A stretch of 64,000 nucleotides of DNA from Vallitaleaceae bacterium (GTDB taxonomy: Bacteria > Bacillota > Clostridia > Lachnospirales > Vallitaleaceae): NCBI GenBank assembly GCA_028277605.1, contig JANQFZ010000068.1, positions 1 to 64,000 of the forward strand. The letters run 5' to 3'. The translations under genes and the position numbers were made by a program. The notes beneath the pieces were generated by a model. That model ran no database searches, was not told the origin of the DNA, and worked only from the letters and a program-made list of their open reading frames with translations. How positions within the stretch are numbered: the first letter of the stretch is position 1; every line of letters starts with the position of its first letter. Of this stretch, positions 58,896 to 61,866 are shown piece after piece.

Positions 58896-58947
58896 AGGAT
58901 ACTTGACTATTGTACATAGAAGTAAATAGTGGATATGATTATAAATA

Positions 58948-58972
58948 AAAGTAGCTTAAAGCTGCTTTTTTT
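58948..58972 (+). terminator. terminator of ftsZ
   Basis: AAAGTAGC (58948-58955) pairs with GCTGCTTT (58961-58968, one G-U) and more T follow. Confidence 0.75.
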
Positions 58973-59062: not shown

Positions 59063-59069
59063 TGTAGAA
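59063..59069 (+). promoter_or_regulatory. upstream Spo0A box of spoIIG (candidate)
   Basis: TGTAGAA differs at one base from the 0A box TGTCGAA. It lies about 70 bases upstream of the spoIIG -10 box, close to site 1 of the B. subtilis spoIIG promoter. Confidence 0.45.
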
Positions 59070-59104
59070 ATATATTGGAAAAAAATTATTTTTTACAGAG
59101 AAGT

Positions 59105-59138
59105 TTTGACAAATTATTTGAGGTGGTTCAGGTATAAT
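59105..59138 (+). promoter_or_regulatory. Spo0A-type spoIIG promoter with 21-base spacer
   Basis: Perfect TTGACA (59106-59111) and perfect TATAAT (59133-59138) are 21 bases apart. Ordinary SigmaA promoters use about 17. B. subtilis spoIIG uses the same promoter type with a 22-base spacer and needs Spo0A~P bound over its -35. TTTGACA (59105-59111) is a 6/7 match to the inverted 0A box TTCGACA and overlaps the -35. Confidence 0.65.
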
Positions 59139-59245
59139 TAGCATAGCTTAATGATATAAGAATAAACTGTATTAAGAACACTTAAACCTAAACAGGGATA
59201 TTTAATATCTGCTCAGATATATTCAGGTTAGAAGAGGAGAAAGGC

Positions 59246-60151
59246 GTGGTTTTAGAAGTCTATATTGATGTTGTTTTTATCATTAATTTTATAATGGATT
59301 TTATCATTTTATGGCTTGTAAGAAAACTAGCTAAACAAAAAATAGTATTATCAAAAATAATCATGGGTGCTTTAATTGGTGCTATGATGATGTGTATTAT
59401 CGTTATACTTCCATTTAAAAATTATTTTTTCAATGTTATACTCGGCTATTTAATAACAAGCTTATTAATTATCTATATGACCTTTAGACCAAAAAGTGTT
59501 CGTGAGCTCATAAAATTAACCATCTTAATGTATCTGATTGCTGTTATGTTGGGTGGAATTATGTTTTCGTTATATTATTATTCATTTTTTGGTACAGCAC
59601 TCAGTGAAATAATAAAAGGGACATACTTAGGAAATATAAAGGTATCATTTCTAATACTTATAGGGTTTGTAGCTTTAATAATTTTTAAATTAGTTAGTAG
59701 AACGCTTTCTAGATCCGTAGCTGTTCATCAGAATGTGATGGATATACAAATTAGTATTAATCAAGCCACCATTCATGTGAATGGATTACTAGATACTGGA
59801 AATAATTTATATGATCCTATCACCAACAATCCAGTCATCATTGGGGAGTGTGACCTATTAAAACCAGTTCTAACTGAGAAGAATTTTACCCAGCTTATAG
59901 GTATGTCTAACAATCTATATGACATTAAGTTATTAAGTGAGTTTAGCAGCCTTAAACTACGATTAATACCCTATTCTTCTATAGGTAATGAAAATGGCAT
60001 GCTATTAGGTATTGTGACAGATTCCGTCAGCATAAAAAATGGAAATAATTATAGAAATTTTAAGGATGTGGTTATTGCTATTTATAACAAGAAATTATCC
60101 AAGGATAATAGCTATCAAGTGCTTATACATCCTGAATTGATAAAAGCCTAA
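59246..60151 (+). CDS. spoIIGA: pro-SigmaE processing protease SpoIIGA
   Basis: Membrane aspartic protease that removes the pro-sequence of SigmaE in the mother cell after septation. 301 residues, the usual length. Five hydrophobic segments (residues about 8-25, 35-55, 60-80, 95-118, 132-152) precede a protease domain with LLDTGNNLYDP, catalytic D183. Start GTG at 59246 follows GAGGAGAAAGG. sigE follows after 131 bases. Transcription starts from the Spo0A-type promoter. Confidence 0.95.
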   Translation: MVLEVYIDVVFIINFIMDFIILWLVRKLAKQKIVLSKIIMGALIGAMMMCIIVILPFKNYFFNVILGYLITSLLIIYMTFRPKSVRELIKLTILMYLIAVMLGGIMFSLYYYSFFGTALSEIIKGTYLGNIKVSFLILIGFVALIIFKLVSRTLSRSVAVHQNVMDIQISINQATIHVNGLLDTGNNLYDPITNNPVIIGECDLLKPVLTEKNFTQLIGMSNNLYDIKLLSEFSSLKLRLIPYSSIGNENGMLLGIVTDSVSIKNGNNYRNFKDVVIAIYNKKLSKDNSYQVLIHPELIKA

Positions 60152-60282: not shown

Positions 60283-61020
60283 TTGACCAATAAAATGCAT
60301 GTCATAGACCTGTTTCAAGTTAAAATTTTAAAAAAATTCAAGAAGATACTATGGTGGGATAGAGGAGATATCCATTATATTGGAGGAACAGAAGTGCTGC
60401 CAGCACCTCTTAACACTGAAGAAGAATCAAGGATCATTAGTATGCTAGGTTCTGAGAATGATTTCAAAATGAAGTCTAAGCTTATAGAACATAATCTAAG
60501 ATTAGTTGTGTACATAGCCAAAAAATTTGAAAATACAGGTATAGGTGTAGAAGATTTAATATCTATAGGAACCATAGGGCTTATCAAATCAATTAATACC
60601 TTTAAGCCTGATAAAAAAATAAAACTAGCTACCTATGCTTCAAGATGTATAGAGAATGAAATTCTAATGTACCTAAGAAGAAATAATAAGACAAAATTGG
60701 AAATATCTATTGATGAACCTCTCAATGTTGACTGGGATGGTAATGAGCTTTTACTGTCCGATATTTTAGGCACCGAAGAGGATACCATCTATAGAAACAT
60801 TGAAGAAGAAGTTGATAGAGACTTACTAAAAAGGGCATTACTTAAGCTAACTGAAAGAGAGAGAACCATTGTTCAATTAAGATTTGGATTGGGTATTCAT
60901 GGAGAAGAAAAAACCCAAAAGGAAGTAGCCGATTTATTAGGAATTTCACAATCTTATATATCTAGATTAGAGAAAAAAATCATAAAACGATTACAAAAGG
61001 AAATTATTAGAATGCAATAA
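60283..61020 (+). CDS. sigE: RNA polymerase sigma factor SigmaE (mother-cell)
   Basis: First mother-cell sigma factor. 245 residues: an N-terminal pro-sequence (about 1-30, amphipathic, [15 protein letters not shown]) cleaved by SpoIIGA upstream of the [17 protein letters not shown] stretch, then sigma regions 2 ([29 protein letters not shown]), 3 and 4 ([37 protein letters not shown]). Start TTG at 60283, 7 bases after GGGGG. It is the second gene of spoIIG. Confidence 0.97.
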
Positions 61021-61027
61021 AAAAAGA

Positions 61028-61056
61028 GTATAAATATAAATCCTCTGGTAATGATT
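61028..61056 (+). promoter_or_regulatory. candidate SigmaF/SigmaG promoter of sigG
   Basis: GTATA (61028-61032) matches the -35 GYATA. GGTAATGATT (61047-61056) matches the SigmaF -10 pattern GGNRANANTW at all but one defined position. Spacer 14 bases. It lies 34-60 bases before the sigG start. B. subtilis sigG is transcribed by SigmaF, so the position fits. Confidence 0.4.
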
Positions 61057-61089: not shown

Positions 61090-61866
61090 ATGGCATTAAA
61101 TAAAGTCGTAATATGCGGCGTTAATACAGCTAACTTACCAACCTTAAAAAACAAAGAAAAAGAAGAGTTGTTTAGTAAAATACTAAAAGGCGATCTTAAA
61201 GCTAGAGAAGATTATATCAAAGGTAATCTAAGATTAGTATTAAGTGTGATTCAAAGGTTCAGTAATTCAGGGGAAATGGTAGACGATTTGTTTCAAGTTG
61301 GTTGTGTAGGTTTAATAAAGGCAATAGATAATTTTGATATTAGTCATAATGTTAAATTCTCAACTTATGCTGTACCCATGATTATAGGGGAAATTAGAAG
61401 ATATTTAAGAGATAATAATAGTATTCGGGTGAGTCGTTCCTTACGAGATACAGCCTATAAAGCCCTTCAAGCAAAAGAGAAGCTCTTAAGAGAAAATAAT
61501 AAGGAACCAACTATTAGTGAAATATCTAAGGAACTAGGTATTAACAAAGAAGATATTGTATTTGCGCTAGATGCAATTCAAGATCCTGTATCGTTATTTG
61601 AACCCGTCTATAATGATGGGGGAGATTCACTATATATTATGGATCAAGTCAGCGATAAAAAGAATAAAGAAGAACGGTGGGTTCGATCAATAGCGCTAAA
61701 AGAAGCAATGAAAAAACTTCCTGAAAGAGAGTTTGAGATACTAAAGCTCAGATTTTTTGAGGGTATGACTCAGATGGAGGTAGCCAATCAAATTCATATA
61801 TCACAAGCTCAAGTATCAAGGCTGGAAAAATCTGCTATACGTCATATGAAAAGATATTTAGGTTAA
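61090..61866 (+). CDS. sigG: RNA polymerase sigma factor SigmaG (forespore)
   Basis: Late forespore sigma factor of 258 residues. The N-terminus NKVVICGVNTANLPTLKN is the conserved SigmaG leader that binds inhibitors. Region 2 shows DLFQVGCVGLIKAIDNFD and NVKFSTYAVPMIIGEIRR; region 3 follows; region 4 has LPEREFEILKLRFFEGMTQ and EVANQIHISQAQVSRLEK. ATG at 61090 follows TGGAGGT; a longer frame from 61051 is less likely. It lies 69 bases after sigE. Confidence 0.97.
   Translation: MALNKVVICGVNTANLPTLKNKEKEELFSKILKGDLKAREDYIKGNLRLVLSVIQRFSNSGEMVDDLFQVGCVGLIKAIDNFDISHNVKFSTYAVPMIIGEIRRYLRDNNSIRVSRSLRDTAYKALQAKEKLLRENNKEPTISEISKELGINKEDIVFALDAIQDPVSLFEPVYNDGGDSLYIMDQVSDKKNKEERWVRSIALKEAMKKLPEREFEILKLRFFEGMTQMEVANQIHISQAQVSRLEKSAIRHMKRYLG

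Follow-up and report, generated by a model that had tools for sequence, protein, structure and literature searches.

The window, which is the whole stretch of 64,000 nucleotides analysed here from a Vallitaleaceae bacterium, contains a spoIIGA-sigE-sigG cluster downstream of ftsZ (Table 1), and SpoIIGA, SigE and SigG were identified with NCBIfam models. A 276-bp intergenic region precedes spoIIGA and holds the promoter described below, which lies directly upstream of spoIIGA-sigE as expected for a promoter of the spoIIG type. The hairpin 3' of ftsZ resembles a terminator and ends the upstream gene, and thus spoIIGA probably needs a promoter of its own, separate from the ftsZ unit. Between sigE and sigG we also noticed by eye the sequence GTATA (61028-61032) followed after 14 nt by GGTAATGATT (61047-61056), and this element (61028-61056) looks like a sigma-F/sigma-G-like promoter for sigG.

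Table 1. Genes and promoter elements at the spoIIG locus (window coordinates).
Feature	Position	Strand	Remarks
ftsZ	57762-58895		gene 5' of the gap
Terminator-like hairpin 3' of ftsZ	58947-58969	+	scan: 10 pairs and T run; 0.1 expected in shuffles
Upstream 0A box, direct, TGTAGAA	59063-59069	+	6/7 to TGTCGAA; at -43 relative to the hexamer
Weak inverted 0A-like box, TTTTACA	59091-59097	-	5/7; may form a tandem with the main box
Main 0A box, inverted, TTTGACA	59105-59111	-	6/7 to TTCGACA; sits where a -35 would be
A/T tract after the main box, AAATTA	59112-59117	+	AAATTTT-like in relatives
Sigma-A -10 element, TATAAT	59133-59138	+	0.89-0.99 conserved per position in the de novo motif
Predicted transcription start (A)	59145	+	inferred from distance to the -10 (7 nt past)
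Leader, about 101 nt	59145-59245	+	first ~35 nt conserved in same family (alignment)
spoIIGA, pro-sigma-E processing peptidase, GTG start	59246-60151	+	TIGR02854, E 2.7e-62
sigE, sporulation sigma factor E	60283-61020	+	NF006158, E 9.4e-118
sigG, sporulation sigma factor G, downstream in the cluster	61090-61866	+	NF006071, E 7e-138

The promoter consists of TTGACA (59106-59111) and TATAAT, both exact, separated by exactly 21 nt (59112-59132), as the initial annotation of this DNA had described. The TTGACA hexamer is contained in the main 0A box, so that an inverted Spo0A site covers the -35 region, and the direct TGTAGAA box starts 42 bases upstream of the start of the main box; both were also correctly noted there, each with six of seven positions matching. 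The naming of this site as the spoIIG promoter agrees with the genes found downstream, and the placement of Spo0A sites near -40 and -80 agrees with the positions of about -40 and -82 (the TGTAGAA at 59063) predicted from the inferred start. The A/T tract covers the position that a -35 normally occupies and has no -35 resemblance.

Downstream of the -10, the first ~35 transcribed bases (window 59139-59175, TAGCATAGCTT...GAATAAA) are kept in the same family, and this conserved early leader may act in initial transcription or in regulation. A search of the leader against Rfam returned no family at the gathering level; the sub-gathering matches, which were the only hint of a structured RNA, overlap the ftsZ terminator hairpin and were dismissed.

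Among 20,000 shuffled versions of the 276-bp region (first-order Markov), the pair TTGACA-N21-TATAAT did not occur once, and the same gap has two 0A boxes matching at least 6/7 positions versus 0.30 per shuffled region. Genome-wide, exact TTGACA-N15..24-TATAAT gives 109 matches compared with 24 for a reversed control. Of the approximately 100 exact TTGACA/TATAAT matches listed, at least 5 have a 21-nt spacer. The hexamer pair alone is not rare in this genome, and the strong evidence is its conservation.

We gathered 212 spoIIGA upstream regions from the same family, order, class and phylum. A motif search with a random start and no consensus supplied returned a 48-nt motif, CA-N4-TTTTGACAAATTTTT...TATAAT, in 183 of the 212; removal of near-duplicates, by sequence identity rather than by tree, reduced these to 156 promoters and left the picture unchanged. 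A two-block model, started from the consensus and with the spacer free to vary from 12 to 27 nt, assigned 201 of the 212 regions, with 180 spacers at 21 nt, 18 at 22 nt, one at 20 nt and two at 12 nt. No spacer of 13-19 nt is present among the 201 assigned regions, including the 17-nt spacer that, in close relatives, the initial annotation would have counted against its reading. Its view that the layout is preserved is well founded, with 198 of 201 at 21-22 nt and the Spo0A boxes retained. Within a subset of 112 regions there are 63 high-scoring pairs at 21 nt, versus about 0.4 per spacer class in shuffles.

In a sister genus of the same family (L014 and L016) the spacer is 22 nt and the hexamer is GCGACA or ATGACA, and the switch between 21 and 22 nt thus occurs inside one family. 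Other genomes (G003, G005-G007, G009, G011, G012, G014-G016, G018 and G019) have no recognisable spoIIGA and either short or no SpoIIE matches, which suggests that sporulation has been lost within the family, in several genera.

The identity of the hexamer was addressed by comparison with ordinary sigma-A promoters, using 219 upstream regions from about 400-460 kb of the same genome and the same kind of model. These have a 17-nt spacer in 64% of cases, 16 nt in 13% and 21 nt in 2%, and their -35 elements carry most information at the start of the hexamer (T1 0.92, T2 0.72 and G3 1.25 bits, then A4 0.47, C5 0.53 and A6 0.13). In the 156 non-redundant spoIIG promoters the corresponding values are 0.06, 0.76, 1.17, 1.30, 2.51 and 1.41 bits. 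ACA is near-invariant (intact in 146 of 156), GACA is usual and the first base is unconserved, the common hexamers being TTGACA, ATGACA, GTGACA, TTTACA, CTGACA and GCGACA. An unaltered TTG is seen in 36 of 156 (0.23) versus 0.54 expected from the genome's -35 matrix; the relatives thus lack the TTG conservation that would mark a stretched-spacer class with a true -35, although the window's own hexamer keeps TTG. At the canonical -35 position, 16-18 nt from the -10, the mean score is -4.65 bits compared with -2.24 at random positions, and a single promoter of the 156 exceeds the random 90th percentile there, unlike what an ordinary sigma-A promoter should show. Within the A/T tract of the relatives, two T positions are 0.78 and 0.69 conserved, which is explained neither by the 7-bp 0A box nor by a -35.

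Spo0A contacts G2, C4 and G5 of the 0A box TGTCGAA (PMC3485338), and in the inverted orientation these bases correspond to hexamer positions 5, 3 and 2. Because ACA is kept and the first base is free, the reverse of the genome's own -35 elements, the most fitting reading of the hexamer is an inverted Spo0A box in place of a -35, set at constant spacing to a strong -10; the profile derives from the relatives and applies to the window through homology. The initial annotation's description of a -35 with an anomalous spacer finds no support in that form, since what is conserved is a Spo0A box, with GACA retained and the first T variable, and there is probably no stretched -35 from which polymerase would be repositioned.

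Direct 0A boxes matching at least 6/7 positions concentrate at two distances from the hexamer that differ by one helical turn. They are found at -34 to -32 in 23 of 183 spoIIG and 26 of 40 spoIIE regions, and at -44 to -42 in 13 of 183 spoIIG regions, with 0-2 at control offsets, and 1-2 at those lying further upstream; an upstream box of this quality is thus present in a minority of spoIIG regions. The window's TGTAGAA lies exactly at -43, as does TGT(A/T)GAA in its relatives L006-L009, and the phasing of the second, direct box is thus either -33 or -43. Inverted boxes occur at -14 in 16 of 183 relatives, and the register of the window's TTTTACA, at -15, is not exact. A conserved CA at -6/-5 is the alternative in relatives, and many regions have one or the other of these as a weaker partner just 5' of the main box.

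The genome encodes Spo0A, the master regulator of sporulation (PF08769, E 8.1e-47). Its DNA-binding domain matches the crystal structure of the Bacillus domain (1lq1, E 3.6e-51) over the full length, including RVERAIRHAIEVAW. The same promoter arrangement is found upstream of spoIIE, where the spoIIG-trained motif scores above the shuffle 99th percentile in 40 of 52 regions, and the free-spacer model places 39 of the 52 at 21 nt and nine at 22 nt. The spoIIE promoter of the window's genome is GTGACA-N21-TATAAT (L128), and the pattern GACAAA-N19-TATAAT occurs four times over 3.34 Mb, including once each at spoIIG and spoIIE. PMC12090719 gives both operons as Spo0A targets that depend on sigma-A in B. 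subtilis. It is rather probable that the promoters of spoIIG and spoIIE throughout the phylum sampled belong to a single class that lacks a -35, its place being taken by an inverted 0A box at a rigid 21 or 22 nt from the -10, and that this rule is precise enough to predict more direct Spo0A~P targets from sequence. The promoter type itself is already known from B. subtilis spoIIG and spoIIE, and what is new is its breadth and the spacing rule; a search for a paper stating such a rule across Clostridia found none among the literature covered, and an earlier description is possible.

Another GACAAA-N19-TATAAT match (L307; G000:C78:166402-166432, minus strand) lies shortly upstream of a methyl-accepting-chemotaxis-like gene, named by eye, and is accompanied by a series of three inverted 0A-like boxes (TCGACA, ATGACA and ACGACA) with a spacing of exactly 10 bp. 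This chemoreceptor gene is predicted from its upstream sequence to be an extra direct Spo0A~P target. A further match to the class at G000:C66:27216, 5' of a PadR-like gene that follows pilus-like genes (by eye), is probably a chance occurrence.

The B. subtilis spoIIG promoter has the same gene order, a -35-like hexamer over a 0A box, a long spacer, boxes near -40 and -80 and a strong -10, and differs in having a 22-nt spacer rather than 21 nt and in the register of the upstream box, which is at -43 here. For that long-spacer promoter, repositioning of the sigma-A polymerase by Spo0A~P has been described. MerR-type activators also make over-long sigma-70 spacers usable, and these proteins occupy a site within the spacer and work with a genuine -35, whereas in the spoIIG promoters described here the box appears to take the place of the -35. 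An experimental parallel is C. difficile, for which PMC3789822 reports a spoIIGA start mapped to GTGACA/TATAAT and a 240-fold drop in sigE without spo0A, and the Spo0A DNA-binding domain binds the spoIIGA region in vitro (PMC3485338). That promoter thus shares the two hexamer elements, the Spo0A dependence of sigE and the Spo0A binding, and its hexamer begins with G, which fits a 0A box rather than a -35. B. subtilis spoIIE, a sigma-A and Spo0A~P promoter (York et al. 1992, as cited in PMC12090719), is of the same class although in a different operon, and across spoIIE regions a good upstream box is more frequent (at -34 to -32 in 26 of 40).

We regard it as likely, with good confidence, that the window carries a Spo0A~P-activated, sigma-A-dependent spoIIG promoter of the B. 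subtilis spoIIG/spoIIE type. The layout, spacing, conservation, phased boxes, presence of Spo0A and sharing with spoIIE were computed here, and for Spo0A~P binding, the sigma contact and the off/on behaviour we draw on the B. subtilis and C. difficile work. The sigma-A polymerase would read the strong TATAAT of a promoter without a -35 at the right distance, and Spo0A~P would bind the inverted box at about -40, 21 or sometimes 22 nt from the -10, presumably assisted by a second upstream site (about -82 in the window). Bound there, Spo0A~P would contact sigma-A region 4 and stand in for the missing -35, with 21-22 nt being the distance at which this contact works, and the operon would stay off until Spo0A~P is high. 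At spoIIG, Spo0A needs contact with the sigma subunit, according to the title of Schyns 1997 as cited in PMC12090719, and it acts after closed complex formation (PMC12090719).

A caveat is that the window and its closest relatives have a perfect TTGACA, and a double role is possible in which the hexamer serves as both Spo0A box and -35 in these close relatives and does the Spo0A job alone elsewhere. TTGACA is kept in all seven aligned family members with 21-nt spacing, but this may reflect descent only, and the sister genus has departed from it within the same family (GCGACA or ATGACA, with the 22-nt spacer); we give this reading a lower probability. Replacement of the -35 is preferred also to the view that an over-long spacer separates a genuine sigma-A -35 from the -10, with polymerase docking first on the hexamer and Spo0A~P then moving or bending the complex until the -10 is reached too. 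That view, which we consider unlikely, follows the repositioning cited for B. subtilis by the initial annotation and familiar from the literature, and it gains from the perfect hexamer in the window and from the average of +3.71 bits that the relatives' hexamers score on the genome's own -35 matrix. Yet positions 1-2 matter in the genome's -35 elements and include the freest position here, and a true -35 is disfavoured because one that had been kept should show the opposite conservation; the conservation profile, as a feature of sequence, favours 'replaces' over 'repositions'. Finally, a chance pairing of hexamers, with the true promoter at another place in the 276-bp gap or ahead of ftsZ, is highly improbable: the pair at 21 nt is not rare genome-wide and weaker 16-18-nt pairs number 6 in the region versus 3.8 expected, but conservation in relatives rejects chance, the ftsZ terminator intervenes, and a normal 16-18-nt promoter nearby is represented by weak candidates only, the canonical -35 position being anti-consensus in relatives.

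The spoIIG promoter, the on-switch for the genes of the first mother-cell sporulation factor, is a textbook example of how an activator can rescue a promoter with poor spacing, and has been studied mainly in one species. Approximately 200 natural variants now show which bases matter, with rigid spacing and the supposed -35 kept as a Spo0A site, and they allow a direct test of whether Spo0A repositions polymerase or replaces the -35. The sequence rule could be used to find direct Spo0A~P targets in organisms without genetics.
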